DNA of 49,218 nt from Sulfurimonas sp. CG01_land_8_20_14_3_00_36_23. GTDB taxonomy: Bacteria > Campylobacterota > Campylobacteria > Campylobacterales > Sulfurimonadaceae. Both the position numbers and the translations under genes were made by a program. This document shows, one piece after another, positions 1,270 through 28,733 of this stretch (positions are counted from its first letter, which is position 1; each line of letters begins with the position of its first letter). The stretch is from contig PETN01000019.1 in NCBI GenBank assembly GCA_002781365.1, positions 1 to 49,218 on the forward strand. Direction: 5' to 3'. The notes beneath the pieces are model-generated. The model made no database searches and was not told the DNA's origin. It saw only the letters and a program-made list of their open reading frames with translations.

Positions 1270-1292
1270 GCTGTATAGAACAAGGACTATAG

Positions 1293-1955
1293 ATGGGTAA
1301 GCTTTTAAATATTGTTACCAAACTTCATACAGCAACATCAAGAAAATATATAGATAGAATGGTTGATGACAAAATTAACTGTATGATAAAAGCAAAAGAG
1401 TATGGCTATGATTATTGGGATGGCGATAGAAAATATGGCTATGGCGGTTATAAATACGATGGCAGGCATAAAGCGGTTGCACTTGATTTAATCAAAGAGT
1501 ATGACCTTCAAGATGGCTGTAAAATACTTGATGTCGGTTGTGGCAAAGCATTTTTACTTTATGAATTAAAACAGTTACTTCCACATGCCAAGATTGTTGG
1601 ATTTGATTATTCCGAGTATGCGATAAAAAATGCAAAAGATGAGATAAAAGAGTTCCTTTTTAAACATAATGCTCAAGATGTTTATCCTTTTGAAAATAAT
1701 GCGTTTGATTTGGTTATCTCATTTACGACTTTACATAATTTGAAAATATACGATTTAAAGAGAGCGGTTCAAGAGATTGAGCGAGTCGGTAAAAATAAGT
1801 TTATTATGGTTGAAGCTTATCGAAATGAAGCGGAACTTTTTAACTTAGAGTGTTGGGCACTTACATGTGAAAGTTTTTTCAGACCTGATGAGTGGATATG
1901 GATGTATGAAGAGTGGGGTTATAAGGGTGATTATGAGTTTATATATTTTGAATAA
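1293..1955 (+). CDS. Class I SAM-dependent methyltransferase
   Basis: SAM-binding motif I (ILDVGCGK) is at residues 78-85, and the acidic end of strand 2 is in VGFDYSEYA. The N-terminal Tyr/Gly-rich segment (YDYWDGDRKYGYGGYKYDG, about residues 39-57) belongs, as I recall, to a methyltransferase family that travels with radical SAM and sugar-activation genes. The 220-residue length is normal. An AAGGA ribosome binding site precedes the ATG. Base use matches genes 12040-18647 rather than the AT-rich genes 3053-12043, so it probably belongs to the outer module. One exact copy of the GGCATGTGGAA motif lies inside it. The substrate is unknown; transfer to a sugar or lipid precursor is inferred from context. 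Confidence 0.85.
   Translation: MGKLLNIVTKLHTATSRKYIDRMVDDKINCMIKAKEYGYDYWDGDRKYGYGGYKYDGRHKAVALDLIKEYDLQDGCKILDVGCGKAFLLYELKQLLPHAKIVGFDYSEYAIKNAKDEIKEFLFKHNAQDVYPFENNAFDLVISFTTLHNLKIYDLKRAVQEIERVGKNKFIMVEAYRNEAELFNLECWALTCESFFRPDEWIWMYEEWGYKGDYEFIYFE
1579..1589 (-). repeat. GGCATGTGGAA dispersed motif, exact copy
   Basis: Exact 11-mer on the minus strand inside the methyltransferase, encoding PHA in the gene frame. It is the only exact copy in the first 18 kb. Confidence 0.9.
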
Positions 1956-1963
1956 GGAGAGTT

Positions 1964-3034
1964 ATGGCGAGTAAATATTCAAATCTTAAGATATTTCATT
2001 ATCAAGAGAAGCTTGACACCTTATCTAGAGATGTTTCTGAGATAAAAGCGCCGATTCATATCCGCATCAAACCTACAAATGTTTGTAATCACAACTGTTG
2101 GTATTGTGCTTATAAAGTAGATTATCTTCAACTTGGACAAGATATGGTTGAGCGAGATTATATTCCCCAAGTAAAGATGATGGAGATACTTCAAGATTGT
2201 CACGATATGGGAGTGAAAGCTATTACATTTAGCGGAGGCGGAGAACCTTTTACCTATAGATATTTCAACCAAACGATAAAAAAACTCATAGAGTATGGTA
2301 TCTCATTTGCAAGTTTGACAAATGGAAGTAAGCTTAACGGTGAAATAGCAGAACTTTTTGCACAGCATGCAACGTGGCTGAGAGTCTCCATAGATGGCTG
2401 GGATGATGAGAGTTATGCAAAAGCTAGAGATGTAAAAGTAGGAGAGTTTAGTAAAATCATACAAAATATGAAAAACTTTTCAGCGCTTGGTGGCAGATGT
2501 GCTTTAGGTGTAAGTTTTATTGTCGATAACAAAAACTACACACACACTTATGAATTTGTCAAACTTATCAAAGAGAGTGGAGCAAGTAGCATAAAAATAT
2601 CTCCTTGTGTTGTGAGTAACCATTCAAAAGAGAATGATGCATATCATAAAGCACTCTTTGATGTGATGCAAGAGCAGATAAAAAGAGCAAAAGCGGATCT
2701 TGAAGATAGCAGTTTTGAGATATACGACTCATATCACCTTTTTGGTGATGAGATGGATAAAAAGTATGAGTGGTGTCCATTTATGCAAGTATTGCCTGTA
2801 ATCGGTGCTGATTTAAATATCTATCCATGCCAAGATAAAGCGTACAACTTGGACAACGGTTTGGTTGGAACTATTAAAGATAAAAGTTTCAAAGATTTTT
2901 GGTTTAATGACAAAGAGAAGTTTTTTAAAATAAATCCGAGTTGTGATTGTCAAAATAGATGTGTGGCAGATGAAAAGAATAAGATGATTTTAGATTATTT
3001 GAATGTTGATAGTGAACATTTAGGGTTTGTATAA
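1964..3034 (+). CDS. Radical SAM/SPASM-type protein (outer-module paralogue 1)
   Basis: The CxxxCxxC cluster-binding triad is C41, C45 and C48 (VCNHNCWYC), followed by a GGGEPF motif typical of the radical SAM barrel. The C-terminal third (from about residue 270) carries further cysteines (WCPFMQVLP, YPCQD, CDCQNRC) that suggest a SPASM or twitch auxiliary Fe-S site. The N-terminus (KIFHYQEKLDTL) resembles the starts of the proteins at 12040 and 15413 (KLSYHPDRVAQW and KILWHQERLQEW), so the three are probably paralogues that share a substrate class. A TAAGGAG ribosome binding site precedes the ATG, and the gap to the upstream gene is 8 bases. The reaction is unknown; dehydration, epimerisation or C-C bond chemistry on a sugar would fit the neighbours. 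Confidence 0.88.
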   Translation: MASKYSNLKIFHYQEKLDTLSRDVSEIKAPIHIRIKPTNVCNHNCWYCAYKVDYLQLGQDMVERDYIPQVKMMEILQDCHDMGVKAITFSGGGEPFTYRYFNQTIKKLIEYGISFASLTNGSKLNGEIAELFAQHATWLRVSIDGWDDESYAKARDVKVGEFSKIIQNMKNFSALGGRCALGVSFIVDNKNYTHTYEFVKLIKESGASSIKISPCVVSNHSKENDAYHKALFDVMQEQIKRAKADLEDSSFEIYDSYHLFGDEMDKKYEWCPFMQVLPVIGADLNIYPCQDKAYNLDNGLVGTIKDKSFKDFWFNDKEKFFKINPSCDCQNRCVADEKNKMILDYLNVDSEHLGFV

Positions 3035-3052
3035 TAAATATAAGAGGTAAGA

Positions 3053-4000
3053 ATGAAATATAATGTAAATGAATATCCCAAGATGCTTCCAATTTGTATA
3101 GAAGAGGGATTTTGTAATTTAGCTTGCCCAAAATGTCCTGTACATGGGGATAACCCTAGACATAATGATATTGTCAAGGGCAGAATGTCTTTAGAAAATG
3201 CAGAAAAAATTTTTAATGAAGTAGAAGGGCATAATGTACTCGTAACACCTTCTGGAGTAACAGAGCCATTCGTACAAAATGATTTTTTTAAATATGTTGA
3301 TTTGTTAAATAAAAGAAATATCAGTATAACCATAAATTCAAATGGATTATTAATAGATGAGGAAATGGCAGAAAAAATTGTAAATGATTATAGTATCTCT
3401 TCCATATTTATTAGTGTAGATGCGATGACGAGTGAGACACTTTCAAAAGTACGAGATACTGTAAAATTAGAGAAAATTAATGATGCTGTTTTTTGTTTAC
3501 TTAAAGCGAGAGGTGAAAAAATAACTCCTCGTATTGGTGTCTCTTTTACAACAGAAGATGCTAATAAGATGGAAAAAGATAGTTTCATTAAATATTGGAT
3601 TCAGTATGTAGATGCTATCAGGGTTAATGAATTATATCAGTATGGTGATGAAAAAACTATACAAGGCGATAGACCACCGTGTCCAGTGTTGTATGATACC
3701 CTTTTTATAGGGATAAATGGAAATGCGAGAATATGCTGTTTGGATGTATTTGATAAGACTTCGGTTGGAAATGTTTTAGAGACAAGCGTTAGAGAAGTGT
3801 GGAATGGGGAAAAAATGAATCAAGTGAGAAAGTTTCATGAAATAGGAGAATTTGATAAAGTTGATTTATGTAAAAATTGTCAAGATTGGTCCAGATACAT
3901 TTTTAATGAAGAATACGAAAAGGATGGTTTACTAATTAGAAAATCAAAATTATTAACTTATTACAATAGGTTAGACAGAATGAAAAATTGGAGGATGTAG
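3053..4000 (+). CDS. Radical SAM/SPASM domain protein
   Basis: CxxxCxxC lies at C21, C25 and C28 (FCNLACPKCP), close to the N-terminus. The C-terminal region has the SPASM pattern: CP at about residue 204, ARICCLD, SVREVWNGEKM and CKNCQDW. Such proteins use an auxiliary cluster to modify peptides or small molecules. This type resembles the protein at 9951 more than the 1964/12040/15413 trio. AT-rich codon use starts here, which suggests it begins the inserted cassette. A TAAGAGGTAAGA ribosome binding site region precedes the ATG. Product and substrate are unknown. Confidence 0.85.
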   Translation: MKYNVNEYPKMLPICIEEGFCNLACPKCPVHGDNPRHNDIVKGRMSLENAEKIFNEVEGHNVLVTPSGVTEPFVQNDFFKYVDLLNKRNISITINSNGLLIDEEMAEKIVNDYSISSIFISVDAMTSETLSKVRDTVKLEKINDAVFCLLKARGEKITPRIGVSFTTEDANKMEKDSFIKYWIQYVDAIRVNELYQYGDEKTIQGDRPPCPVLYDTLFIGINGNARICCLDVFDKTSVGNVLETSVREVWNGEKMNQVRKFHEIGEFDKVDLCKNCQDWSRYIFNEEYEKDGLLIRKSKLLTYYNRLDRMKNWRM

Positions 4001-4004
4001 AATA

Positions 4005-6032
4005 TTGAAATCTAAGATTAATTGTTTTATGGCTGATTTGACACACACAAAGCAAGGAGTTCAGGCAAAATGTTTTCCACTTGGAGTAGGGTTAGTTGCT
4101 GAATATATAAAACAAGAATTAGGTAACATTTTAAATGTAGAGATATTTAAGTATCCAAGTGATTTAGAAGAAAAGTGTATTCAATATAAGCCTGAAATTT
4201 TAGCCCTATCTAGTTATGCATGGAATCATGAATTAGCAAATAATTTTGCTAAAGCGTATAAATCATATAACCCGGAAGCTATTATTATATTTGGTGGACC
4301 AAATTTTCATCATGTTGATGATGAAAGAAAAAAATTTCTTTTGCGCTATGATGTGATAGATTTTTTCATATTTGGTGAAGGAGAGATAGCTGTTGTAAAT
4401 CTTTTACATGAACTTATCTTAAATAATTATGATGTTAATAAAGTGAAAAATAGTCATAAATACATTAATAATTGCTCTTACATTAGTAATAATATAATTT
4501 ACAGCGGTAATAATATTAGGATAAAAAAGATTAAAGAAATGCCATCCCCTTATTTGAGTGGTACTTTTGATAAATTTTTTAAAAATGATTTAATACCTCT
4601 TTACGAAACTACAAGAGGTTGTCCATTTTCTTGTACATTTTGTTCCGATGGTGCAAGTATTAAAAATAAAATATATAGACATACTCAAGAAGTTATTAAT
4701 GAAACTTTGGAATATATAGCAAATAAAAAAGAATATATAGATAGTTTGATTTTAGCAGATTTAAATTTTGGTATGTATAATGAAGATATAAGCACTTGTG
4801 AAAAAATAGCAGAAACTAAACAAAAATATGGTTATCCTGTGTTTTTTTCAGCTTCTGCAGGCAAAAGTAAATTTGAAAATATTTTAAAATCTGTAAAAAT
4901 TTTAGATGGTAGTTGGTTTGTAGGTGCAAGTGTTCAGTCAACCGATATTGATGTTTTAAAAAATATTAAGAGAAAAAATTTACCATATGATAAAATGATT
5001 GAATTAGCAAATAGCACAAAAGATAAAGGATCCGTATCCTATACAGAGATTATTTTAGCGTTACCTGATGATTCTAAAATAAAGCATTTTAAATCTTTAA
5101 AGACAAGTATAGATGCAGGATTAAATTCTATAAAAATGTTTCAATTGATGCTTTTGACTGGCACTGAAATGAGTGGTCAGGAAAGTATAGACAAATATGG
5201 TATGTCTGTGAAGTTTAGAGTTATGCCTGGAGCAGCAGGTGAATATACATTTTTTGAAAAAAAATATTGTATTGCAGAATTTGAACAGATAGTTGTATCA
5301 AATAATACATTAAGTTATGAAGACTATATAGAATGTCGTTTGATGGATTTAATTGTAGAAATATTTATTAATAATGCAACATTTTATGAGTTGTTTATCG
5401 TGCTAGATAAATATAATATAAGTAAGTTTGATACACTAAAATATATAAAAGACAATGATAACTTGTACACAAAAAAAGTTAAAGATATATTTAATAGTTT
5501 TAAAAAAGATACGCAGCAAGATTTATTTGATACTTATGATGAAATATTATCATTTATTCAAATGAAAGATATTATAGAAAAACACATTACAGGGGAATTG
5601 GGAAATAATGAAATATTAGATCACAAAGCATTAAGCTTTATAGAATATGAAGAGTTTATCGATTTATTGTATAGAGCTATTGTATGTATGTTAAAAGAGC
5701 ACAATGGGTATAATATCGATATAGATAAAGTTCTTATCCAATTAAAAGATTTTATAGTAACTAAAAATAGTAGTTTACATAATTATGATTTAATTGAACA
5801 AAGAGTATATAATTATGACTTTTCTAATATTAGAACTAAAAGTTTTGATGATATAGTAAATAGTAAGAATGAAGGAATGGAATATGAGTTTTATCATACA
5901 AATGAGCAAAAAGCAATTATAAAAAATATATATAGTTCATATGCAGGCAATACAATTGCCGGATTAGGTAGATTAATACAAAAATCTAATATGAATATAA
6001 TGTATAGAAACTTTAAGATAAAAGATACATAA
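4005..6032 (+). CDS. B12-binding-domain radical SAM protein
   Basis: This 675-residue protein has an N-terminal cobalamin-binding-like Rossmann region (about 1-140; PEILALSSYAWN, AIIIFGGPNF, DFFIFGEGEIAV). The radical SAM barrel follows, with C206, C210 and C213 (GCPFSCTFC). The C-terminal extension of some 250 residues is helical and unassigned. The DxHxxG motif that supplies the lower cobalt ligand in many B12 proteins is not visible, as in part of this family. The start chosen is TTG, because GGAGG lies 10 bases upstream inside the end of the previous gene. An ATG at 4029 is the alternative. Very AT-rich. Typical chemistry of the class is methylation or rearrangement at unactivated carbon. 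Confidence 0.85.
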   Translation: MKSKINCFMADLTHTKQGVQAKCFPLGVGLVAEYIKQELGNILNVEIFKYPSDLEEKCIQYKPEILALSSYAWNHELANNFAKAYKSYNPEAIIIFGGPNFHHVDDERKKFLLRYDVIDFFIFGEGEIAVVNLLHELILNNYDVNKVKNSHKYINNCSYISNNIIYSGNNIRIKKIKEMPSPYLSGTFDKFFKNDLIPLYETTRGCPFSCTFCSDGASIKNKIYRHTQEVINETLEYIANKKEYIDSLILADLNFGMYNEDISTCEKIAETKQKYGYPVFFSASAGKSKFENILKSVKILDGSWFVGASVQSTDIDVLKNIKRKNLPYDKMIELANSTKDKGSVSYTEIILALPDDSKIKHFKSLKTSIDAGLNSIKMFQLMLLTGTEMSGQESIDKYGMSVKFRVMPGAAGEYTFFEKKYCIAEFEQIVVSNNTLSYEDYIECRLMDLIVEIFINNATFYELFIVLDKYNISKFDTLKYIKDNDNLYTKKVKDIFNSFKKDTQQDLFDTYDEILSFIQMKDIIEKHITGELGNNEILDHKALSFIEYEEFIDLLYRAIVCMLKEHNGYNIDIDKVLIQLKDFIVTKNSSLHNYDLIEQRVYNYDFSNIRTKSFDDIVNSKNEGMEYEFYHTNEQKAIIKNIYSSYAGNTIAGLGRLIQKSNMNIMYRNFKIKDT

Positions 6033-6033
6033 A

Positions 6034-6765
6034 ATGCAAGAAAAATATGTTTTAATTACTGCCTCCAGTTCTGGATTAGGACTTGAAATAGCAAAGCAAC
6101 TTTCATCTGATGGATACAGTATAATATTAACATCAAGACATAAACAGAAGTTAGAAGAGTCAGCAAAACTACTGAATAATAAGTTAAAAAATATAATAGT
6201 TAAAATAGATTTTAGTAAAGATGATATTAATAGGGTGCTAATAGAAAAAATAAAAAATTTAAATATTGTAGCCATAATACATAATTTCGGCTTAAGCTTA
6301 GAAAATGATAAACATCCCATAGATTTAGATATTCTAGATAAGAGTATATATAATAATTTTATAGTTTCTTTGAAAATCAATAACTATTTTTTTGATAAAT
6401 TATCTGGTGAACCAAGTAAAATAATATATATTGGTTCAACTGCTAGTTTGCATGCCAAAGCTTCACCATCATACACATTAAGTAAAAGTTTGATTAATAC
6501 TTATGTAAAAAATTCATCCCAATTTTATGTGGAAAAGAATATATCAGTTTTTGCAATATTGCCAGGTATTTTAGGGCATGATGGTAGTGAATGGGATAAA
6601 AAAAAGATTATAGATAGAGAAAAATATCTAAGTACACAAAAATCTCAGCCATTAAAGAGATTTACTATGCCAAAGGAAATTAGTAAGTATATTAGCGCTC
6701 TTCTTAGTGTTAATAATCTTCTTGTAAGCGGAAGTGTTATAAAACTTGATGTAAATGACTATTAA
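6034..6765 (+). CDS. Short-chain dehydrogenase/reductase (SDR)
   Basis: A classical SDR of 243 residues. The nucleotide-binding motif TASSSGLG is at residues 9-16, the catalytic Ser is in GSTAS, and the YxxxK pair is in YTLSK. It begins one base after the stop of the B12 radical SAM gene, so translation is probably coupled. It probably oxidises or reduces a ketone or alcohol on the product of the neighbouring enzymes. A second SDR lies at 8017, with a C-methyltransferase-like gene between them. Substrate and cofactor preference cannot be read from the sequence. Confidence 0.88.
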   Translation: MQEKYVLITASSSGLGLEIAKQLSSDGYSIILTSRHKQKLEESAKLLNNKLKNIIVKIDFSKDDINRVLIEKIKNLNIVAIIHNFGLSLENDKHPIDLDILDKSIYNNFIVSLKINNYFFDKLSGEPSKIIYIGSTASLHAKASPSYTLSKSLINTYVKNSSQFYVEKNISVFAILPGILGHDGSEWDKKKIIDREKYLSTQKSQPLKRFTMPKEISKYISALLSVNNLLVSGSVIKLDVNDY

Positions 6766-6773
6766 TTGGAAAT

Positions 6774-8015
6774 ATGATGAAAAATTATAAAAATGACAAG
6801 TGTAGAATATGTGCTAGTAAGGAATTAGAAGAGGTTTTATTTTTAAATCCATCACCCTTAGCAGATAACTATGTCTCAAAAAGTCAGTTGTCTGACAAGC
6901 AAGAACTTTTTGATATGAATGTTTCATTATGTAAACAGTGTGGATTGGTTCAGCTATTAACAGTGGTAGAGCCTGAGGACATATACATTGACTATTTGTA
7001 TAAAACGACTACTTCTGTTGGATTACCGCAACATTTTGTTGATTCTGCATTAAACATTATTAAAAAATATAATATAGAGAAGCATAGTTTTATTGTTGAT
7101 ATTGGGAGTAATATTGGAAGTTTACTTCATGGATACAAAAACTTTGGCATGAAAGTTTTGGGGATAGATCCAGCAAAAGATATTGCTAAAGAAGCGACTA
7201 CTAACGGTATTGAAACACTGCCTATATTTTTTACATCGCTAACTGCTCAATCTATTGTAGAAAAATATGGAAAAGCAAAAGTTATAAATTCTAATAATAT
7301 GATGGCAAATATTGATAAAATAAATGACTTAGTAATAGGTATTAAAGTTTTACTTGCTGAGGATGGTGTTTTTGTCATGGAAACATCTTATTTACTGCAT
7401 CTGATTAATAATATGGTATTTGACACTATTTATCATGAACATTTATCCTATTTTGGATTAAAACCTTTGCAATATTTGTTTGAGGAAAATGGATTGAGAG
7501 TGGTTGATGCTGAGATTGTAGACACTAAAGGTGGTTCTTTAAAATGCTATATAGAACATGATAAAAACCAAAAAATAAGTCAAAATGTGTTCGATATTAT
7601 AGAAAATGAAACATTACAAAAACTCTATGAAAAAAAAATATATCAAGAATATCAAAATAAAATATCTAAGCAAAAAGAATTATTAGTTGATTCTTTGCAA
7701 ACTATTAAAAAGTATGGGAAAAAAGTTTTTGGATATGGTGCTTCAAATACAACTACAACGCTACTGCATCATTTTGAAATAGCTAAGTATTTTGAGTATA
7801 TTGTTGATGACAATGATATAAAAATTGGAAGATTTTGTCCAAATAATCATCTGCCAGTAGTAAGTTCCAATGTAATATATGAAAGAAAACCTGATTACAT
7901 AGTGATTTTTGCTTGGCGATTTGCGGATGTTATAATAAAAAAACATCAAAATTTTTTAGATAATGGTGGCAAGTTTATAATACCGTTACCAAAATATCAA
8001 GAAATAAGTTGTTAA
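6774..8015 (+). CDS. Sugar C-methyltransferase-like protein (zinc-binding N-terminus)
   Basis: The 413-residue layout matches the Methyltransf_13/Methyltransf_23/Methyltransf_14 family, which includes C-methyltransferases acting on nucleotide-linked keto-sugars (TylC3/NovU-like). The N-terminal paired cysteines (CRICAS and CKQCG) form the zinc site. The SAM motif is FIVDIGSNIGSLL, followed by GIDPAKDIAKEA. The C-terminal lobe includes FGYGASNTTTTLL, typical of the family. Lying between two SDRs, it suggests a C-methyl-branched, then reduced, sugar. Two adjacent ATG codons (6774 and 6777) can serve as the start. The assignment to a sugar substrate is inference. Confidence 0.82.
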   Translation: MMKNYKNDKCRICASKELEEVLFLNPSPLADNYVSKSQLSDKQELFDMNVSLCKQCGLVQLLTVVEPEDIYIDYLYKTTTSVGLPQHFVDSALNIIKKYNIEKHSFIVDIGSNIGSLLHGYKNFGMKVLGIDPAKDIAKEATTNGIETLPIFFTSLTAQSIVEKYGKAKVINSNNMMANIDKINDLVIGIKVLLAEDGVFVMETSYLLHLINNMVFDTIYHEHLSYFGLKPLQYLFEENGLRVVDAEIVDTKGGSLKCYIEHDKNQKISQNVFDIIENETLQKLYEKKIYQEYQNKISKQKELLVDSLQTIKKYGKKVFGYGASNTTTTLLHHFEIAKYFEYIVDDNDIKIGRFCPNNHLPVVSSNVIYERKPDYIVIFAWRFADVIIKKHQNFLDNGGKFIIPLPKYQEISC

Positions 8016-8016
8016 T

Positions 8017-8781
8017 ATGAAATATTTTGTAGTTATTGGAGGTAGTAAAGGGATAGGTCGTGAATTAATTAAAAAGTTAATTAAAGATCAAAAGAATATG
8101 GTTTTATTGGTTTCAAGGCAAAATATAGATATAGATTCATCTAATATAATTCATTTTAAAACCAATTTACTAAATGAAGAAGATATTCAAAATACATTAG
8201 TATCAATAAAAAAGATATCTCCTAAAATTGATAGTTTATTTTTCAGTCAAAAATATCGATTAATTGATAAAAGTGCATATAAACTAACAGAAGATTTGAT
8301 GGTAAATGTAGCGGCAACAAAAATATTTATTGAATATTTTAAAGATAAATTTTATAAAAATGGATTAAAAAGTATAGTTATTATTGGCTCAATTGCCTCT
8401 AAGTTTGTTGCTACAGAGCAGCCTGTTGATTATCATATTTCAAAGAGTGCATTAGTTGGTTTAGTTAATTATTATGCAGTCGCTTTAGGAGAGAATAAAA
8501 TCAGAGTAAATATGATTTCCCCAAGTACTGTAATTAAAGATGAAAATAAACTTTTTTATAAGACGAATAAAGAGTTGTATAATCTTTATCGTTCAATTAG
8601 TCCATCGAAATCTGTACTCAAATCATCTAATGTTGTGGATTTAGCCAAATATTTATTATTTAAAAAATCTAAATTTATAACAGGTCAAAATATCATAATT
8701 GATGGTGGAATATCGTTACAATGGCAAGAATCGATTGGAAGAAAGCTTGTAAATCTTGATAATTTAAAATTAATACAATAA
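8017..8781 (+). CDS. Short-chain dehydrogenase/reductase (SDR)
   Basis: 254 residues with GGSKGIG near the N-terminus (about 8-14), catalytic Ser in IGSIASK, YxxxK in YHISK, and the C-terminal TGQNIIIDGG typical of classical SDRs such as FabG-like oxidoreductases. It starts one base after the methyltransferase stop. Together with the SDR at 6034 it could perform the redox steps before and after C-methylation. It is AT-rich like the rest of the 3053-12043 block. Confidence 0.88.
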   Translation: MKYFVVIGGSKGIGRELIKKLIKDQKNMVLLVSRQNIDIDSSNIIHFKTNLLNEEDIQNTLVSIKKISPKIDSLFFSQKYRLIDKSAYKLTEDLMVNVAATKIFIEYFKDKFYKNGLKSIVIIGSIASKFVATEQPVDYHISKSALVGLVNYYAVALGENKIRVNMISPSTVIKDENKLFYKTNKELYNLYRSISPSKSVLKSSNVVDLAKYLLFKKSKFITGQNIIIDGGISLQWQESIGRKLVNLDNLKLIQ

Positions 8782-8800
8782 GTTCATAATGGAAGGGAAA

Positions 8801-10901: not shown

Positions 10902-12043
10902 AAAAACGGGTAGCATTCATCCCTCCTTCTGGAATAATGGTATATCAAGATAGTTTTTTTAGGAGAATTTTAAAATATTTTCATAAACTTGACTATGTAG
11001 AAACTTATCTGATATCTATATCTAATGTAGATTGTGTGAATACATTTATAGTTGATTACAATATAACTGTTTCGAATTATGATGAATTAATTACATTTTT
11101 AAAAAAAGAAGCATTTGATTTAGTTATTCATAGGACTTGGATGCATAGATACAAATTTGCTGGGAACCTTTCTAAAGATGTTAATAATATAGTATTTTAT
11201 ATTAAGGATTGGATAGATGAGATAGCTCAAGATAAATACAAATTTTTATTCAATACTGTAAATGATTATGAAGGAATTAAAGAAATTTTTGAAAATGGAA
11301 ATCTTATTTTATCTCATTATGCTACATCCTATCGAAATAAATTAGCAAATACCTATAATGTTTCAAAAGAAAAATTTATTTTTTTCCCAGAATATTGTAA
11401 TGAGGAAAATTTTGTAACTAAGAAATTGTTGCACTATAAAAAAAGTAAGAACAAGAAACTTCTATGGATAGGTGGATTTGTTCCCACAACCGGACCACAA
11501 GAATTAGGAGAAAATAAATATCATTTTGAAACTGCAAGAACTATAACGGGAAATAATATAAAATTTCATTTTTTTTTATTAAAAAAAAGATATGATGAAG
11601 TGTTTAATCCAGAGAATAAATTAATATGGCAAGATTGGCTTTATGAACATCAATTTAATAAGAATTTAAAAATTAAATTAGGCACAATTGACCGATTTGA
11701 AATATTTGAAAAATATAATTTTGCGGTAGTTGCTGGATTGAAATATGATAAAACAGCACTGTATCAAGAAAATTACTCTGAGGCAGTTGTAAGTAAACTT
11801 GCTTTTTATATGGAGCTAGGAATACCAATGATTGTAAATAAAAGATGGTCAGCAATTGCTAAGATAGTAGCTGAAAATAAGCTAGGCATAGTGATTTCTA
11901 ATAAAGAATTGAAGAATTTAAATACTATTCTTAATATATCAAAAAAAGAATATAAACTAATGGTTGAAAATATATATGATTTTAGAAAAACTTATACCTA
12001 TAATGATCAAACAATGAAACCAATTTTGGAGATGTTAAAATGA
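10898..12043 (+). CDS. GT-B-like glycosyltransferase (probable)
   Basis: 381 residues with two Rossmann-like halves. The C-terminal half has LLWIGGFVP and then YSEAVVSKLAFYMELGIPMIVNKRWSAIAKIVAENKLGIVI, which matches the sugar-nucleotide-binding segment of GT-B enzymes. It starts in a 4-base ATGA overlap with the radical SAM gene and ends in a 4-base overlap with the next. A run of nine T followed closely by eight A near 11569-11588 could be slippage-prone. Acceptor and donor are unknown. Together with the SDRs and methyltransferases it argues that the cassette makes or attaches a glycan. Confidence 0.65.
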   Translation: MKKRVAFIPPSGIMVYQDSFFRRILKYFHKLDYVETYLISISNVDCVNTFIVDYNITVSNYDELITFLKKEAFDLVIHRTWMHRYKFAGNLSKDVNNIVFYIKDWIDEIAQDKYKFLFNTVNDYEGIKEIFENGNLILSHYATSYRNKLANTYNVSKEKFIFFPEYCNEENFVTKKLLHYKKSKNKKLLWIGGFVPTTGPQELGENKYHFETARTITGNNIKFHFFLLKKRYDEVFNPENKLIWQDWLYEHQFNKNLKIKLGTIDRFEIFEKYNFAVVAGLKYDKTALYQENYSEAVVSKLAFYMELGIPMIVNKRWSAIAKIVAENKLGIVISNKELKNLNTILNISKKEYKLMVENIYDFRKTYTYNDQTMKPILEMLK

Positions 12044-13131
12044 GTGACAAATACGCAATAGATAGCCACAAACTAAGCTACCATCCAGACAGAGTCGCAC
12101 AGTGGCTTGCAGCGGGTGATAATATAGAAAAACTGAAAAAAGTTTATCCTATATATGTAGAAATTTCTCCAGTAGGGGCTTGTAACCACCGATGTACTTT
12201 TTGTGCGGTTGATTATATAGGGTATCAAAATATTCGATGGGAAACGGATATCTTAAAAGAGCGACTTAGCGAGATGGGTAAGTTAGGTGTTCGAAGTGTG
12301 ATGTTCGCTGGTGAGGGTGAGCCACTTTTACACAATAATCTTGATGATATTATAGAGCATTGTGCCAATGTAGGCATAGATAGTTCTATAACGACAAACT
12401 TTACAATGCTGAATGAGAAAAATGTCTATAAAATCTTTAAACATGCTTCATGGGTGAAGATCAGTATCAATGCAGGAACAAGAGAGACTTATTCTCAAAT
12501 TCATAGAACCAAAGCTGAAGACTTTGACAAAGTTATAGAGAATATGAGATTGGCTGTAAAAACGAAAAGAGAGAATAACTTCAAATGCACACTGGGTGCT
12601 CAAATGTTACTTCTGCCTGAAAACAGAGATGAAGCAGTCACTTTGGCAAAAATTGCAAAAGAGGTAGGTTTGGATTATCTCGTTATTAAGCCATACTCTC
12701 AGCACTTGTTTAGCCAAACAAAAACATATAAAGATATAGATTATAAGCCGATGTTGGAGCTTGAAAAAGAGCTTGAACTGCTTAATGATGGAAATTTCAA
12801 TGTTGTCTTTAGAAGCAATACTATGAAAAAACTTGAGACTGGGCACAGTTATGAGAAGTGCTATTCAACACCTTATTTCTGGGCTCATATGATGGCAAAT
12901 GGAGATTTATATGGTTGCAGTGCCTATTTGCAACAGAGTAAATTTTGCTATGGAAATTTACTAGAAAATAGTTTTGAAGAGGTTTGGGAAAGCGATAAAC
13001 GAATCAAATCTATAACTTATGTAAAAGAGAAACTTGATATTTCAGGATGCCGTGCAAACTGTAGAATGGATGAAGTAAACGGCTACCTTTGGAGACTCAA
13101 ACATCCAAGTGAACACGATAATTTTATATAA
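12040..13131 (+). CDS. Radical SAM/SPASM-type protein (outer-module paralogue 2)
   Basis: C48, C52 and C55 form the CxxxCxxC triad (ACNHRCTFC), and AGEGEPL is the GGE motif. The C-terminal auxiliary cysteines are in KCYSTPYF, LYGCSAYL and GCRANCRMD. The N-terminal KLSYHPDRVAQWL matches the start of the protein at 15413 (KILWHQERLQEWV) and, more weakly, the one at 1964. Base composition becomes less AT-rich from here on. It starts in a 4-base overlap with the glycosyltransferase-like gene and is followed 8 bases later by the epimerase. Confidence 0.88.
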   Translation: MSDKYAIDSHKLSYHPDRVAQWLAAGDNIEKLKKVYPIYVEISPVGACNHRCTFCAVDYIGYQNIRWETDILKERLSEMGKLGVRSVMFAGEGEPLLHNNLDDIIEHCANVGIDSSITTNFTMLNEKNVYKIFKHASWVKISINAGTRETYSQIHRTKAEDFDKVIENMRLAVKTKRENNFKCTLGAQMLLLPENRDEAVTLAKIAKEVGLDYLVIKPYSQHLFSQTKTYKDIDYKPMLELEKELELLNDGNFNVVFRSNTMKKLETGHSYEKCYSTPYFWAHMMANGDLYGCSAYLQQSKFCYGNLLENSFEEVWESDKRIKSITYVKEKLDISGCRANCRMDEVNGYLWRLKHPSEHDNFI

Positions 13132-13139
13132 GGGTTGAG

Positions 13140-14129
13140 ATGAAAGCAGTAGTAACAGGCGGAGCAGGTTTTATAGGCTCGCATATGGTGGATTTGTTGG
13201 TATCGAAAAACTATGAAGTGGTCGTTTTAGATAATCTTGCGAATGGTCGTTTAGAAAATATAGAGCATCATAAAGGCAAGGTGGCATTTTGGCATGTGGA
13301 TATTGGAGATTACGGGGTAGATTTAGACCCTTACTTTGAAGATGCAGATTATGTTTTTCATTATGCGGCACTTGCGGATATTGTCCCTTCTATTAACAAT
13401 CCTCTAAAGTATCATAAGGCAAATGTCGATGGAACAATTCAAGTTTTAGAGGCTGCAAAAAAAAGTAAAAATCTTAAAAAATTTGTTTATGCGGCTTCGA
13501 GTTCATGTTATGGTATTCCTGAAATGTATCCTACACCTGAGAGTAGTCCAATTAAGCCTGAGTATCCCTACGCACATACAAAAACAATCGGCGAACAGTA
13601 TGCTATGCACTGGGGGCAGGTGTATGATATGCCGGTTGTCTCCATGCGATTTTTTAATGTTTATGGTGTGAGACACAGAACAAGCGGAACGTATGGAGCT
13701 GTTTTTGGTGTCTTTTTAGCACAGCTTCTCAATAATAAACCACTCACAATTGTCGGAGATGGAGAGCAAACAAGAGATTTTACTTATGTTACCGATATCG
13801 TTGATGCCTGCTATAGAGCAAGTCAAAGCGAGATAACACAAGAGATTTTTAATGTCGGAAGTGATAATACGTACTCTATTAACTATTTGGTCGATTTACT
13901 CGGTGGGGAAAGGGTATACATCCCAAAAAGACCAGGTGAGCCTGATAGCACCTATGCAGATATAAGCAAAATAAAAAGGATGCTTGGCTGGACTCCAAAG
14001 GTAAGTTTTGAAGATGGAGTAAAGATCATGCTTGAAAATATCGAGCAGTGGCGAGAAGCCCCAATTTGGGATGAAGCGAGCATAAAAGAAGCGACCAAAG
14101 ATTGGTTTGCTTGTTTAGGGGAAAAGTAG
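13140..14129 (+). CDS. NAD-dependent sugar epimerase/dehydratase
   Basis: An extended SDR of 329 residues. GGAGFIGSH (residues 7-15) binds NAD, ASSSCYG carries the catalytic Ser, and Y144/K148 form the YxxxK pair. FNVYG and DFTYVTDIVDA are typical of GalE/WbpP-type UDP-sugar 4-epimerases and related 4,6-dehydratases. An imperfect (10/11) copy of the dispersed motif lies at 13291-13300. Its place before the transketolase and nucleotidyltransferase genes suggests it acts on the nucleotide-activated sugar. The exact substrate cannot be read. Confidence 0.85.
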   Translation: MKAVVTGGAGFIGSHMVDLLVSKNYEVVVLDNLANGRLENIEHHKGKVAFWHVDIGDYGVDLDPYFEDADYVFHYAALADIVPSINNPLKYHKANVDGTIQVLEAAKKSKNLKKFVYAASSSCYGIPEMYPTPESSPIKPEYPYAHTKTIGEQYAMHWGQVYDMPVVSMRFFNVYGVRHRTSGTYGAVFGVFLAQLLNNKPLTIVGDGEQTRDFTYVTDIVDACYRASQSEITQEIFNVGSDNTYSINYLVDLLGGERVYIPKRPGEPDSTYADISKIKRMLGWTPKVSFEDGVKIMLENIEQWREAPIWDEASIKEATKDWFACLGEK

Positions 14130-14921
14130 TTGTTACATTCAGCAGAGATACGCAAAAAAACCATAGCACTCTCCTGTGCGAGTGGTGCAGGGCATTTGGC
14201 ACCTTCACTTAGTACAGTAGAGATACTCACGGTTTTGTTTCGTGACTTTTTACACTACGATAAAAACGATGCAAAAAGTGATGCGAGAGATAGACTCATT
14301 TTTAGTAAAGGACACGGTGCGTATGCCTACTATGTGCTATTAAACGAGCTTGGTTTTTTACCACATAATGAGTTGGAAAATTTTTATAACGGAGCTTCCA
14401 TCAAAGGGTGCCTCACGCAAAATCTTGATTATATGATTGAAGCTTCAACAGGCTCACTCGGGCATGGTTTACCGATTGCAGTTGGTATAGCACAAGCTTT
14501 TAAGATGCAAAACAAAAAACAAAAAGTTGTCTGTATTGTAGGTGATGGTGAGATGCAAGAGGGAAGTAATTTCGAGGCACTTGGACTTGCTTATAGATTT
14601 AAACTTGACAATCTTCTTCTCATCGTCGATGCAAACGGACTTCAGGCAATGGACAGAGTCGAAGATGTAGGTCTGGACAATCCTAGACTTGCAAAAGTTC
14701 TCAACTCCTACACCGATAATTTTGCATCTATCGACGGGCATGATGAAGCTGCCTTAAAAGAGACAATGGGGGACTTTTTTTTAAATTCACATGCCAACTT
14801 CTCCGTTCTTTTTTGCAATACACTTAAAGGAAAGGGAGTCGATGTGTGCGAAGATTCCATTGCCCATCACTTCAGATGTCCGACACAAGACGGTTATGTT
14901 TTAGGAGTTGAAGATGAGTAG
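14130..14921 (+). CDS. Transketolase, N-terminal (TPP-binding) subunit
   Basis: 263 residues covering the thiamine diphosphate domain of transketolase. DRLIFSKGHGAYAYY, the STGSLGHGLPIAVG loop and the TPP motif GDGEMQEGSNFEA (from residue 138) are all present. The start is TTG directly after the TAG of the epimerase, with AGGGGA just upstream. It pairs with the next gene, which overlaps its end by 8 bases. Split transketolases of this kind transfer a two-carbon ketol unit. In a sugar-activation cluster it could extend or branch a sugar; that role is inference. Confidence 0.88.
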   Translation: MLHSAEIRKKTIALSCASGAGHLAPSLSTVEILTVLFRDFLHYDKNDAKSDARDRLIFSKGHGAYAYYVLLNELGFLPHNELENFYNGASIKGCLTQNLDYMIEASTGSLGHGLPIAVGIAQAFKMQNKKQKVVCIVGDGEMQEGSNFEALGLAYRFKLDNLLLIVDANGLQAMDRVEDVGLDNPRLAKVLNSYTDNFASIDGHDEAALKETMGDFFLNSHANFSVLFCNTLKGKGVDVCEDSIAHHFRCPTQDGYVLGVEDE

Positions 14922-15402
14922 TTTAGCTTCCAAACAAGAAGTAATGCGCGAAATCTACGGCTACTTCAAAAAGGATGAAACAATGGCTCTGCTTGTCGGA
15001 GATATGGGATTCGCGGTTTTAGACGACTACTTTAAAAATCATCAAAGCAGAGCATTTAATACAGGTATTTGTGAACAAGCGACTATCAGCATGAGCGCGG
15101 GAATGTACTTGGCTGGACTTAAGCCCATAGTTTACTCTCAAGTACCATTTTTGGTGATGCGCGCCTATGAGCAGATTCGTTATGATTTGAACGAACACAA
15201 GATGAATGTTAAACTTATCGGTGTTGGTGCCGATAACTACTTTGAGAAACTCGGACGCAGTCACTGCATGGACAGCGATGATGTGGATATGATGAAAATC
15301 TTTAAAAATTTCAAACTATTTGCTCCAACAAAAGAGAGTTTAAAAGAAGATATAAAAGAGATGCTTGAGTATGAGGGTCCAACATATTTAAGATGCTTAT
15401 AA
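14914..15402 (+). CDS. Transketolase, pyrimidine-binding domain only
   Basis: About 162 residues matching the pyrimidine-binding domain of transketolase/DXS: FNTGICEQATISMSAGMYLAG carries the conserved Glu, followed by the helix YEQIRYDLN. The family partner is usually about 300 residues, with an added C-terminal transketolase_C domain. That domain is absent here and the next gene is unrelated, so the pair is a minimal enzyme. Start at ATG 14914 with AGGAG six bases upstream; an in-frame TTG at 14908 is less likely. Confidence 0.85.
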   Translation: MSSLASKQEVMREIYGYFKKDETMALLVGDMGFAVLDDYFKNHQSRAFNTGICEQATISMSAGMYLAGLKPIVYSQVPFLVMRAYEQIRYDLNEHKMNVKLIGVGADNYFEKLGRSHCMDSDDVDMMKIFKNFKLFAPTKESLKEDIKEMLEYEGPTYLRCL

Positions 15403-15412
15403 AGGAATAAAA

Positions 15413-16522
15413 GTGGCAGAATTAATTTTAGACGGTTCTAAAATACTATGGCATCAAGAGAGACTACAAGAGTGGGTACGAGGTGAGAGAATCGTGCCAA
15501 TTACTATAGATATGGCACTCACACAGGCATGTCAGTATAATTGCGAGTTTTGTTATGCCAATATGCAGAGAAACAAACCGCATAAAATCACATTTGAAAT
15601 TATGAAAAACTTTATGGATGATTGTGCCGAAGTCGGCGTGAAGGCAATCAGCTTGGTAAGTGATGGGGAGAGTACAGCAAATCCGATTTATGAAGATGTT
15701 ATAGTTTACGGCAAAAGTGTCGGGCTTGATATGGCCATAGCAACACACGGAAATACTTTAAACGAAGAAGTTTTACGAAAAATTTTACCTGCTTTAACCT
15801 ATCTCAGATTTAATTTCAGTGCGGGTGAGCCTAAGCGATATAGTGAAATCATGGGTGTGCCAGAAGAGAAGTTTTTTGAGACTTGTGAAAATATAAAAAC
15901 AGCGATGCGCATCAAAAAAGAGCTTGGTTTGGATGTAACCATTGGGATGCAGATGGTGTTGATGCCTAAATATGGCGACCAGATTATTCCTCTTGCCAAA
16001 CTCGGAAAAGAGTTGCGACCAGATTATCTAGTTATTAAGCACTGTAGTGATGATGAAGATGGAACTTTGGGCGTGGATTATAATGAGTATGAAAAATCTT
16101 ATGACCTACTCAGAGAAGCAGAAAGTTACAGTGATGAGGGTTATTTAGTAAAGGCAAAATGGTCAAAAATAACCTCTAAAGGAATTAGAAACTACAATAG
16201 ATGCTATGGAACACCTTTTCATCTTCAGATGTCTGGAACTGGACTTATTGCGCCATGTGGAAGTTTCTTTAACGAAAAGCATAAACAGTATCACATAGCG
16301 AACATTACAGACCCAGGTGTGCGCTTAAAAGATATACTTCAAAGCAAGAGATATTGGGAAGTGATGGACTTTTTGGCATCGGATAAGTTTGATGCATGCA
16401 GTATGTGTGAGACTTTGTGTTTGCAAGATAAAACAAATGAAGTTTTGGACGCTTATAAAAAAGGTACGCACAAATTAGACGCTCCAAGCGGAGAAAAACC
16501 GCAACATATAAATTTTATATAG
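15413..16522 (+). CDS. Radical SAM/SPASM-type protein (outer-module paralogue 3)
   Basis: The triad C40, C44, C47 (ACQYNCEFC) is followed by VSDGEST in the GGE position. The C-terminal region has RCYGTPFHL, APCGSFF and CSMCETLC, an auxiliary-cluster pattern like that of its paralogue at 12040. The start codon is GTG at 15413, preceded by AAGGA. It lies between the transketolase pair and the kinase/nucleotidyltransferase, which places radical chemistry in the sugar-precursor pathway itself. The reaction is unknown. Confidence 0.88.
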   Translation: MAELILDGSKILWHQERLQEWVRGERIVPITIDMALTQACQYNCEFCYANMQRNKPHKITFEIMKNFMDDCAEVGVKAISLVSDGESTANPIYEDVIVYGKSVGLDMAIATHGNTLNEEVLRKILPALTYLRFNFSAGEPKRYSEIMGVPEEKFFETCENIKTAMRIKKELGLDVTIGMQMVLMPKYGDQIIPLAKLGKELRPDYLVIKHCSDDEDGTLGVDYNEYEKSYDLLREAESYSDEGYLVKAKWSKITSKGIRNYNRCYGTPFHLQMSGTGLIAPCGSFFNEKHKQYHIANITDPGVRLKDILQSKRYWEVMDFLASDKFDACSMCETLCLQDKTNEVLDAYKKGTHKLDAPSGEKPQHINFI

Positions 16523-16529
16523 GTTATTT

Positions 16530-17942
16530 ATGAAAAAAGTATTTGTTTATGGTGATTTCAATATTCTTCATCCCGGTCACTTAAGACTTTTAAAGTTTGC
16601 TAAAGAGAGTGGAGACTACTTGGTTGTCGGTGTCAATAGCGATAATGTTAGTCAAAAGGGCATCTCGCAAGATGTAAGGCTTGAATCTATTCGAGCTACG
16701 AGTTATGTGGATGACTCTTTTATTTTAGATGTGAGTGCAGTTGTTTATATTGAAAAAAATAGACCTGACATTGTTGTAAAAGGGAAAGAGTACGCAAGCA
16801 GATATAACCCAGAATTGGAAATCATAAAAAGTTATGGTGGAAAGTTACTCTTTAGTTCTGGAGAGATTGGTTTTTCATCTATGGACTTATTAAAAAAAGA
16901 GTTTTTTTCATCCAACTATCAAGTAAATCAAAATTTTTCATATTTAGAGAGACATCATTTTAAACTACCTCAATTAAAGAGTATTGTTGAGAAGTTTTCT
17001 GCTTTAAACATTTTGGTCATTGGCGATACAATTGTGGATGAGTATATCACGTGTGAGGCTCTTGGAATGAGCCAAGAAGACCCAACCATTGTTGTAAGTC
17101 CACTTGCAACAAATAAGTTTATAGGTGGAGCAGCTATCGTAGCAAGTCATGCAGCGACCCTTGGTGCAAATGTGAAGTTTTTTTCCGTAGCAGGAGATGA
17201 TGAAAATAGAGCGTATGTACAAAATGGTCTCAAAGAGTTAGGAATCGATGTTTTTTTATACACGGACACAACAAGACCAACGACACTCAAACAAAGATTT
17301 AGAGCAAGTGGCAAAACACTTCTAAGGGTAAACCATCTCAAACAGCATGCGCTGAGTTCAGATATAGAGAACCTACTTTTAGATGAGTTGACGAAGAGCA
17401 TAAAAGATATTGATTTAATCATTTTTTCGGACTTCAGCTATGGTGTTTTAACAAAGAACTTAATAGAAAATATTGCAAATTTAGGTCTTGAAAACTCTAT
17501 ACTCATGTCAGCAGACTCACAAAGTTCGTCACAAGTTGGAGATATATCTAAATTTAAAAATATGACTTTAGTGACACCTACAGAGAGAGAAATAAGACTC
17601 TCTCTCAATGACTTTGAGTCTGGTTTAGTTGTTTTATCTGATAAACTCGTAGAAGTTTCAAATGCAAAATATATATTTACAACATTAGGGGCGGAGGGAA
17701 TGATGATATATAACTCCACTCAGGATAAACTTTTAACCGATAACATCAATGCTTTAGGAAATATTGTCAAAGATGTAAGTGGGGCAGGTGATTCTCTACT
17801 TACTTGTAGCTCTATGGCTTTAGCTGTGGGTGCGAGTATTTGGGAAGCTGCCTATCTTGGCTCTTTAGCATCTGCTATTCAAGTAAGTCGTGTTGGGAAT
17901 GTACCAATCAAAAAAGATGAGATTTTAAAAGAGTTTGAGTAG
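16530..17942 (+). CDS. Bifunctional cytidylyltransferase-like / PfkB sugar kinase fusion
   Basis: Residues 1-130 are a nucleotidyltransferase with the HxGH motif as H14-P-G-H17 in GDFNILHPGH. Residues about 150-470 are a PfkB/ribokinase with the FIGGAAIVASH substrate loop near 196 and the DVSGAGDSLLTC catalytic motif near 415-425. The heptose enzyme HldE has the same two domains in the opposite order, so this is a domain-swapped relative. It would phosphorylate a sugar and transfer a nucleotide to it. The next gene follows directly (TAG then ATG), giving two nucleotidyltransferase activities in a row. Confidence 0.88.
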   Translation: MKKVFVYGDFNILHPGHLRLLKFAKESGDYLVVGVNSDNVSQKGISQDVRLESIRATSYVDDSFILDVSAVVYIEKNRPDIVVKGKEYASRYNPELEIIKSYGGKLLFSSGEIGFSSMDLLKKEFFSSNYQVNQNFSYLERHHFKLPQLKSIVEKFSALNILVIGDTIVDEYITCEALGMSQEDPTIVVSPLATNKFIGGAAIVASHAATLGANVKFFSVAGDDENRAYVQNGLKELGIDVFLYTDTTRPTTLKQRFRASGKTLLRVNHLKQHALSSDIENLLLDELTKSIKDIDLIIFSDFSYGVLTKNLIENIANLGLENSILMSADSQSSSQVGDISKFKNMTLVTPTEREIRLSLNDFESGLVVLSDKLVEVSNAKYIFTTLGAEGMMIYNSTQDKLLTDNINALGNIVKDVSGAGDSLLTCSSMALAVGASIWEAAYLGSLASAIQVSRVGNVPIKKDEILKEFE

Positions 17943-18647
17943 ATGAGAGCACTTCTTTTGGCTGCGGGACTTGGTACAAGACTTCGACCAATAACAGACA
18001 CAGTACCAAAATGTTTGGTTCCTATTGATGGAAAACCTCTTTTAGGATATTGGCTTGAAAATCTGAGTAAAGCAGGTGTAAATGAGTTTTTAATTAATAC
18101 TTCTTATCTGAGTGAACAGGTTGAAGTGTTTATAAAAGAGAATCCACATGCCAAAAAAGTAACCTTAGTCTATGAAGAAGAGCTTTTAAATACAGGGGGA
18201 ACTCTCTTAGCAAATAGAGATTTTTTTAAAGAAGAACCTTTTATGTTGGTTCACGCTGACAATCTCTCTTTTTGTGATTTTAAAGCGTTTATAGCCGCAC
18301 ATGTTAACCGTCCGAGCGGATGTGAAATAACTATGATGAGTTTTAAAACCGACAACCCCTCGGCATGTGGAATTGTAGAACTAGATGAAGTAGGAGTTGT
18401 GCAAAAGTTTCATGAAAAAGTCGAAAATCCACCCTCAAACCTTGCAAATGGTGCCGTTTATATCTGTGAGCCAAATGTTTTAAAGTTTATTGAGAGCTTG
18501 GGAAAAAAAGAGGTGGATTTCAGCCTTGACGTTTTACCTCATTTCATGGGCAAAATAAGCACTTTTTTAAATGAAGTTTACCACAGAGATATAGGAACTC
18601 CACAAAGCTATGCTCTAGCGCAGTTAGAGTGTAGAACTCTCTTGTAG
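17943..18647 (+). CDS. Sugar-1-phosphate nucleotidyltransferase
   Basis: 234 residues with the NTP-transferase signature LLAAGLGTRLRPITDTVPKCLVPI (residues 4-27). HADN supplies the metal-binding Asp, and the C-terminal DIGTPQSYALAQ is typical of HddC/RmlA/ManC-like proteins. It is the last gene of the plus-strand cluster. Its last 24 bases overlap the end of the convergent maf gene. It carries one exact dispersed motif (18362) and one with a mismatch (18143). It probably makes the NDP-sugar used by the cluster; the nucleotide is unknown. Confidence 0.88.
   Translation: MRALLLAAGLGTRLRPITDTVPKCLVPIDGKPLLGYWLENLSKAGVNEFLINTSYLSEQVEVFIKENPHAKKVTLVYEEELLNTGGTLLANRDFFKEEPFMLVHADNLSFCDFKAFIAAHVNRPSGCEITMMSFKTDNPSACGIVELDEVGVVQKFHEKVENPPSNLANGAVYICEPNVLKFIESLGKKEVDFSLDVLPHFMGKISTFLNEVYHRDIGTPQSYALAQLECRTLL
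18362..18372 (+). repeat. GGCATGTGGAA dispersed motif, exact copy
   Basis: Exact copy inside the nucleotidyltransferase, encoding ACG in the gene frame. A one-mismatch copy on the other strand lies at 18142-18152. Confidence 0.9.
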
Positions 18648-21990: not shown

Positions 21991-22041
21991 GCGTTTTTAT
22001 TTTTTTTATATTGGTTTTGGATAAGCGTTTGAGCAGTGAAC

Positions 22042-25065: not shown

Positions 25066-25070
25066 AATAT

Positions 25071-25763: not shown

Positions 25764-25776
25764 TCAAATTACCTCC

Positions 25777-28636: not shown

Positions 28637-28659
28637 TAGGAAATTTCCTCTTTAAAAGC

Positions 28660-28686: not shown

Positions 28687-28733
28687 GTTTAGTATGAAAG
28701 ATTTAAACAATTAAAACAGAAAAAGGGTCTAAA

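Follow-up and report, generated by a model that had tools for sequence, protein, structure and literature searches.

Flagellin glycosylation islands, in which genes for Maf, PseC, PseF, PseG, methyltransferases, FliD and FliS lie in one neighbourhood, have already been described. An island of this type is present on a 49,218 bp contig (PETN01000019.1, or C57; hereafter the window) from Sulfurimonas sp. CG01_land_8_20_14_3_00_36_23, the 2.43 Mb genome of which is in 102 contigs. It differs from those known in adjoining a run of 18 plus-strand genes (73-18647) that encodes six radical S-adenosylmethionine (SAM) proteins, a split transketolase (TK) and heptose-type activation enzymes. The terms 'radical SAM' and 'transketolase' are both absent from the flagellar glycosylation papers PMC5109656, PMC13317340 and PMC13130089, and no published description of the set was found in the open-licence literature, which is a weak form of absence.

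Parts of the run resemble several described systems. In the available text of PMC12247030 and PMC10338323, the acetolactate synthase (ALS)-type YerE of yersiniose A synthesis is a characterised sugar-branching enzyme dependent on thiamine diphosphate (ThDP), and sugar branching by pyruvate dehydrogenase (PDH)-like and split-TK enzymes is a proposal. Enzymes of these three ThDP classes stand beside keto-sugar-type enzymes in loci related to the window, as they do where branching is known (yersiniose A) or proposed (eurekanate, by EvdU5/EvdS3, and miharamycin/amipurimycin, by a split TK); the window itself differs in having the split TK alone, in a minimal two-domain form. A combination of ALS-type YerE with CDP-sugar enzymes, as in yersiniose A, is absent from the window, ALS-type enzymes being found in related loci only. 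Similarly, the run shares with HldE and HddC a PfkB kinase linked to a cytidylyltransferase-like domain, an HddC-like pyrophosphorylase and, in related loci, a GmhA-like gene, but the domain order is reversed and the scores lie far below the HldE, HddC and GmhA cut-offs. The predicted fold of rs12040, the radical-SAM paralogue that heads the conserved part of the run, comes near those of the radical-SAM enzymes DesII, BlsE and BtrN, and four auxiliary cysteines are conserved, but identity is only 17% and the scores of the peptide maturases SkfB and SuiB are just as high, so that this comparison does not separate sugar enzymes from peptide enzymes. In Campylobacter fetus, phase-variable radical-SAM, short-chain dehydrogenase/reductase (SDR), methyltransferase and formyltransferase genes with G tracts are listed at CFT03427_1545-1581 in the available part of PMC6321876, the likeness being one of gene type.

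In our reading, the run forms a single biosynthetic unit within a flagellin glycosylation island, a unit in which a conserved backbone is joined by an imported cassette; together with the full mechanism proposed below, this reading is held at slightly less than even confidence. When 397 genomes of the phylum were searched with hld, the nucleotidyltransferase-kinase gene of the run, 17 gave matches, that of G034 being a 35% match confined to the kinase part. A further search of named genomes gave 37 loci, 30 of which were titled Campylobacterota or not further placed, the remainder being one each from Proteobacteria, Rhodocyclales, Spirochaetae, Comamonadaceae, Roizmanbacteria, Akkermansiaceae and Halieaceae; many of these genomes are metagenome bins, the titles of which may be wrong. 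Gene maps were made of 48 hld loci (16 from the phylum genome set and 32 named), with duplicates (L020, L022, L030, L042 and L044), the window's own genome and G034 left out, G134 counted twice for its two loci, and genes labelled by their best BLAST hits rather than by curated annotation. These maps have a recurrent order: a GmhA-like gene, a glycosyltransferase gene, rs12040, the extended SDR gene epi13140, the TK subunit genes tktN and tktC, a variable insert, hld, and the pyrophosphorylase gene ntp. The insert may consist of the radical-SAM gene rs15413 alone; of the methyltransferase gene mt1293 and radical-SAM gene rs1964 with SDRs and methyltransferases; of an alcohol dehydrogenase together with PDH-E1 alpha/beta, ALS-type ThDP enzymes or both; or of DmpF/DmpG with an ALS-type enzyme. 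The window combines the rs15413 form with an additional set, from mt1293 to rs9951, that lies upstream of rs12040; adjacency of mt1293 and rs1964, in that order, was counted 13 times.

The association of the backbone genes extends beyond the hld loci. Among the 397 genomes, rs12040 is present in 28 (E <= 1e-40) and the split-TK C subunit in 43 (E <= 1e-12), some of the latter being distant, at around 30% identity. All 28 genomes with rs12040 also carry the C subunit (Fisher 2e-32, which is not a strict probability, the genomes being related), and in 27 of these the genes share a contig and are no more than 6.8 kb apart, the pair being on separate contigs in G349. Sixteen of the 17 hld genomes have the TK subunit and 15 have rs12040. 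Where at least 6 kb was available upstream of hld (32 loci), ntp was found in 31, some radical-SAM gene in 28, mt1293 in 15 and an alcohol dehydrogenase in 10. The possibility that the run joins unrelated operons was rejected on the basis of this co-occurrence and the conserved gene order.

A ThDP enzyme is present upstream of hld in 31 of the 32 loci and in all 15 that have at least 10 kb upstream. The classes overlap, with TK in 24 loci, ALS-type enzymes in six and E1 in six, and the sole locus without any is that of G349, in which the split TK is on another contig. Such exchange of three ThDP classes in one slot would fit carbon-carbon bond formation on a keto-sugar, by analogy with the branching systems above, and is poorly explained by the supply of one ordinary sugar phosphate; the carbon-branched product suggested in the preliminary description is consistent with it. 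The nearest solved structure to TktN is the split TK of Carboxydothermus (6yak, 2e-33), as it is for a profile of TktC (alignment A2, 10 of 11 short TktC rows, with L034 left out; 1.5e-26), and TktN scores 186.8 bits with the TK model NF004559, below the equivalog cut-off of 488. The window's TktC and the ten aligned short orthologues lack the C-terminal domain PF02780, which is present in the form labelled tktC'. The catalytic Glu of TktC (Glu56) and a His (His119) are retained in 47 of 47 aligned rows. A pseudogene was considered and rejected, as the short form (161-202 aa) recurs in 24 other loci and retains the catalytic Glu.

Further genes occur in these clusters, in some cases in place of the split TK. 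Genes for acetaldehyde dehydrogenase and a DmpG-type aldolase lie inside sugar clusters at L020 3523-5456 and L023 3539-5475, both identified by scan, and at L051 177-2212, from the BLAST cluster; they are present as if a 4-hydroxy-2-oxoacid were a ThDP donor. Two ATPase_2 (AAA) genes are found in L022/G349 (L022 4739-5887 and 8051-9184) where other loci have the split TK.

The backbone neighbours point to heptose chemistry. The hld product matches PF01467 and PF00294 above cut-off, with the nucleotidyltransferase first and the kinase second, the reverse of HldE, and has both motif sets (HPGH and GAGD). The ntp product matches a protein of the 6-deoxy-D-mannoheptose pathway (5xhw, 4.4e-27), and the nearest matches of both hld and ntp are heptose-pathway proteins. 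A GmhA-like gene, counted (as were maf and pse) anywhere in a locus stretch, the length of which differs among loci, is present in 21 of the 32 loci and in 14 of the 15 longer ones. In the window's own genome, the end of contig C66 (L087) carries a GmhA-like gene, a glycosyltransferase, a second split TK and a radical-SAM gene in whose product the SPASM domain precedes the radical-SAM domain. Gene order makes it plausible that this end may be the left part missing from the run, which is truncated by the contig edge.

Six CxxxCxxC proteins had been noted in the preliminary description, and each carries the motif once and matches PF04055 above the gathering score. Three of these, rs12040 (A), rs15413 (B) and rs1964 (C), are backbone-type paralogues, and 86 rows of such proteins fall into three tree groups, each on one side of a branch, with support of 52/27 for A, 100/95 for B (25 rows) and 100/100 for C (20 rows); the tree program flags long branches. 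An alignment of 30 rows shows seven invariant cysteines, the three of the SAM cluster and four further, auxiliary ones. In rs3053 the auxiliary cysteines are at 210, 228, 273 and 276, and in rs9951 at 236, 254, 299 and 302, giving in both the spacing 18, 45, 3, which we take to be that of BtrN, an alcohol-oxidising radical-SAM enzyme. The predicted structure of rs12040 (mean predicted local distance difference test score 86.7) was compared with the families listed by VIA-align, and the nearest folds, which are ties, were SkfB (Z 25.7), DesII (25.6), BlsE (25.2) and SuiB (24.9), with BtrN at 18.4.

Of the four methyltransferases previously counted, three (1293, 6774 and 8789) are classical SAM enzymes; the fourth, 4005, is a B12 radical-SAM protein already among the six. 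The protein cmt6774 is a homologue of keto-sugar 3-C-methyltransferases of the TylC3/TcaB9 type, as judged from the presence of all three domains over its full length, residues 9-407 of 413 being aligned with the D-mycarose enzyme (4rv9, 5.6e-78). The 4005 protein matches TokK (1.1e-36) and CysS (6.1e-35), with 174.2 bits against a cut-off of 700 for NF033712, and is a probable C-methyltransferase of the B12-dependent radical-SAM type. In L051 (3848-6427) an mt1293-type methyltransferase is fused C-terminally to an ALS-type ThDP enzyme (residues 671-857 of 859), and because this domain lies behind the carboligase, methylation may follow carboligation. Ten loci have an RmlB-like SDR within the cluster (TIGR01181 210.7 bits; STPEVYG in nine of ten rows), in some cases standing after tktC in place of epi13140. 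SDRs of the RmlB-like type make 4-keto-sugars.

The three dehydrogenase/epimerase (SDR) genes, split TK, kinase-nucleotidyltransferase and NDP-sugar pyrophosphorylase of the preliminary description are all present on the plus strand (Table 1), and its observation of tight packing holds across the run, with gaps of -14 to +23 bp between neighbours. Its gene list was incomplete in that the probable glycosyltransferase gene 10898 and the open reading frame (ORF) 73-1269 are also members; a relative of the ORF product (38-39%) lies directly before rs12040 in L034. The run is a mosaic of the backbone 12040-18647 and a low-GC insert, as seen from a split in base composition within it and from retention of the insert gene order in a genome of the same genus. 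GC is 0.248-0.305 in 4005-12043 and 0.309 in 3053, with 0.33-0.35 in 1293-3034 and 0.355-0.409 in 12040-18647. The co-occurrence of the outer genes that had been put forward as a check was found in this second genome (G360), which retains the order mt1293-rs1964-sdr6034-cmt6774-sdr8017-mt8789-rs9951-hld-ntp at 51-77% identity, without rs3053, 4005 and 10898.

Table 1. Genes of the run and of the adjoining flagellar neighbourhood in the window
Feature	Coordinates	Strand	Basis
Protein without assigned family, 398 aa, first gene of run on contig	73..1269	+	No Pfam/NCBIfam match
mt1293, SAM methyltransferase, recurrent partner of rs1964 and ThDP enzymes	1293..1955	+	PF13847, PF08241 above cut-off
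rs1964, radical-SAM paralogue C	1964..3034	+	PF04055
rs3053, radical-SAM/SPASM protein	3053..4000	+	PF04055 + PF13186
B12-dependent radical-SAM protein, probable C-methyltransferase	4005..6032	+	PF02310 + PF04055
sdr6034, short-chain dehydrogenase	6034..6765	+	PF00106, PF13561
cmt6774, keto-sugar 3-C-methyltransferase type	6774..8015	+	PF08421 + PF13489 + PF08484
sdr8017, short-chain dehydrogenase	8017..8781	+	PF13561; PtmA model NF050062 54.8 bits (cut-off 350)
mt8789, SAM methyltransferase	8789..9964	+	PF13489 30.4 bits, barely over 27-bit cut-off
rs9951, radical-SAM/SPASM protein	9951..10901	+	PF04055 + PF13186
Probable GT-B glycosyltransferase	10898..12043	+	Inspection by eye; no Pfam/NCBIfam match
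rs12040, radical-SAM paralogue A, first backbone gene on contig	12040..13131	+	PF04055; tree; predicted structure
epi13140, extended SDR, UDP-glucose 4-epimerase type	13140..14129	+	PF01370, PF16363; 4zrm 1.2e-51
TktN, TK ThDP-binding subunit	14130..14921	+	PF00456
TktC, TK pyrimidine-binding subunit, 164 aa, without C-terminal domain	14908..15402	+	PF02779 only
rs15413, radical-SAM paralogue B	15413..16522	+	PF04055
hld, nucleotidyltransferase-PfkB kinase, HldE domains reversed	16530..17942	+	PF01467 + PF00294
ntp, NDP-sugar pyrophosphorylase, HddC/ManC-like	17943..18647	+	PF00483
Maf-type flagellin glycosyltransferase	18624..20597	-	PF01973 above cut-off; Maf_flag10_N below
PIG-L deacetylase, WbqC, hexapeptide transferase, NeuB/PseI-like synthase, methyltransferase, PseG, PseF, PseC	20610..26895	-	Domain/model matches
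FliD and FliS	27209..29108	+	FliD models below cut-off; FliS PF02561 above

Downstream of the run, Maf and nonulosonic acid genes are linked to flagellar genes, as in a flagellin glycosylation island; PseC, PseF and PseG score above their NCBIfam cut-offs and NeuB/PseI below. Synthesis of nonulosonic acid by the run itself was rejected, as the NeuB/PseI-type gene and other Pse genes form a separate minus-strand set. Further along the window, at 40548-45804, a 1060-aa fusion of CheB, CheR and histidine kinase precedes a receiver-PAS-GGDEF-EAL protein.

The core of radical-SAM, split-TK, mt1293 and rs1964 genes is also found in eight loci (L088-L093, L100 and L103) from Campylobacter-size genomes of 1.6-2.2 Mb (families f2 and f3), which probably belong to Campylobacter and its relatives. 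Flagellin and Maf neighbours were checked in two of these: in L103 the core lies next to genes for flagellin and Maf, identified with Pfam, and in L088 a flagellin-like N-terminus was identified by eye. These eight loci contain 50 G/C tracts of at least eight bases in 158.8 kb (8 in L088, 13 in L089, 1 in L090, 3 in L091, 11 in L092, 8 in L093, 4 in L100 and 2 in L103). By comparison, the hld-type loci have 4 over 955 kb, L094-L097 have 1 over 80 kb, and the window has none. Four of the eight (L088, L092, L093 and L103) carry a second copy of rs12040 that is broken into two frames at a tract, and heavy phase variation of the Campylobacter-size loci appears likely from these sequences.

The product of the window run would be a heptose-linked, methylated and probably C-branched flagellin sugar, built by cassettes. 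Under the proposed mechanism, a GmhA-like isomerase encoded elsewhere in the genome would supply heptose phosphate, which the reversed HldE-like hld and HddC-like ntp products would activate. Oxidation of the activated sugar to a ketone would fall to an extended SDR together with a radical-SAM enzyme that has a single auxiliary cluster, and the minimal split TK would add a two-carbon ketol unit to this ketone, giving a tertiary alcohol and hence a C-branched higher sugar. The cassette would methylate this product through mt1293, the TylC3-type C-methyltransferase, the B12 radical-SAM enzyme and mt8789, its two SDRs would reduce it, and the glycosyltransferase and/or Maf would place the sugar on flagellin. 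Gene content, conserved order, the swapping of ThDP enzymes and flagellar linkage are direct observations, from which we infer isomerisation, activation, oxidation, carboligation, methylation, transfer and the product itself.

Confidence differs between the parts of this proposal. That the run encodes a coherent surface-glycan pathway is highly probable, and that flagellin is its target is likely; derivation of the sugar from heptose is slightly favoured, and branching by a ThDP enzyme is evenly balanced. A number of observations weigh against the proposal. In fold, rs12040 comes as close to peptide maturases (SkfB and SuiB) as to sugar enzymes (DesII and BlsE), and the window SDR epi13140, with motifs SSSCYG and YAHTK, is of the epimerase rather than the dehydratase type. 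Scores with curated models are well under their cut-offs both for hld (TIGR02198 208.4 of 345 bits; TIGR02199 64.3 of 181.5 bits) and for the GmhA-like proteins, the best model for which, TIGR00441, gives 106.3 and 101.9 of 209.45 bits, about half the cut-off. Comparison of the final 400 bases of C66 with the initial 400 of the window showed no exact 20-base stretch in common. In the 19-20 kb fetched, the eight Campylobacter-size loci retain the core but have neither hld nor a GmhA-like gene, which weakens the heptose link of the core and is the reason that confidence in the whole mechanism was set below even. Finally, maf was found in only 11 and pse in 18 of the 32 hld loci, many of which are short, and the target could thus be other than flagellin in some loci.

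The main rival to C-branching is that the split TK gives a heptulose phosphate, possibly modified, by two-carbon transfer to an aldose, and that the GmhA-like protein, hld and ntp convert this to an activated, methylated but unbranched heptose. The frequency of the GmhA-like gene and the heptose-enzyme relatives of hld and ntp would both be expected on this account, and TK can turn 5-deoxyribose, a salvage product of radical-SAM 5'-deoxyadenosine, into 7-deoxysedoheptulose according to the available text of PMC8102628. We consider it unlikely, as one sedoheptulose supply leaves unexplained the swaps to PDH-E1 and ALS-type enzymes in the same loci, as a keto-sugar C-methyltransferase is present, and as genomes normally carry a housekeeping TK. 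Distinctly less probable is the suggestion that the ThDP, SDR and radical-SAM enzymes make an unusual small acid or polyol that decorates the neighbouring pseudaminic or related nonulosonic acid, with hld and ntp activating the small unit. Pse genes and Maf adjoin the run, the DmpF/DmpG and ALS-type enzymes of L020, L023 and L051 suggest small-carbon building blocks, and di-O-methylglyceroyl-pseudaminic acid is known in C. jejuni (from the accessible portion of PMC6321876); set against these are the keto-sugar C-methyltransferase, the NDP-sugar SDRs and the GmhA-like gene of the longer loci.

Two further alternatives concern the acceptor. The same chemistry might serve a lipopolysaccharide (LPS) O-antigen or capsule, the flagellar neighbourhood being a shared hot spot for surface glycans, as several hld loci lack maf or pse within the stretch examined and glycosyltransferase-like genes lie within the clusters. 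This is improbable, if marginally less so than the side-chain suggestion, given the Maf, Pse, FliD and FliS genes next to the window run, the presence of maf and pse in 9 and 11, respectively, of the 15 longer loci and the flagellin and Maf genes beside the core in L103. Alternatively, the twitch/SPASM radical-SAM proteins could act on a ribosomal peptide or on flagellin itself, with which the SPASM matches and the SkfB and SuiB folds would agree. The constant pairing of rs12040 with the split TK makes this very improbable, as does the absence of any gap above 23 bp, and thus of a separate precursor gene, within the run; a ribosomal peptide maturase system was rejected for the same want of room, the small-peptide search being confined to the run.

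The preliminary description had suggested that the cluster could make a methylated, carbon-branched and radical-rearranged sugar for flagellin or LPS. Of that view, the coherent activation cluster, methylation and flagellin link are supported, the carbon branch, the radical rearrangement and the site of attachment are conjectural, and a backbone with exchangeable cassettes is a better description than one fixed pathway. On a more tentative footing than the window mechanism, the loci together may represent a cassette system for C-branched higher flagellin sugars, in which a radical-SAM enzyme would form the ketone, a carbon branch would be added by a ThDP carboligase from any of three interchangeable classes, radical and classical methyltransferases would modify the product, and G/C tracts would switch many of the genes in Campylobacter-size genomes. 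Under this same tentative reading, the system would be common in some Campylobacterota, with single occurrences in other phyla.

According to the part of a 2025 review available (PMC12247030), split-gene TKs have not been characterised in vitro as carbon-branching sugar enzymes, and the cluster would give a direct test of them in that role. A role would likewise be assigned to the radical-SAM paralogue family that accompanies the split TK in the genomes searched. If the proposal is true, the decoration of flagellin would reach beyond nonulosonic acids and take in a chemistry that is modular and in part phase-variable.

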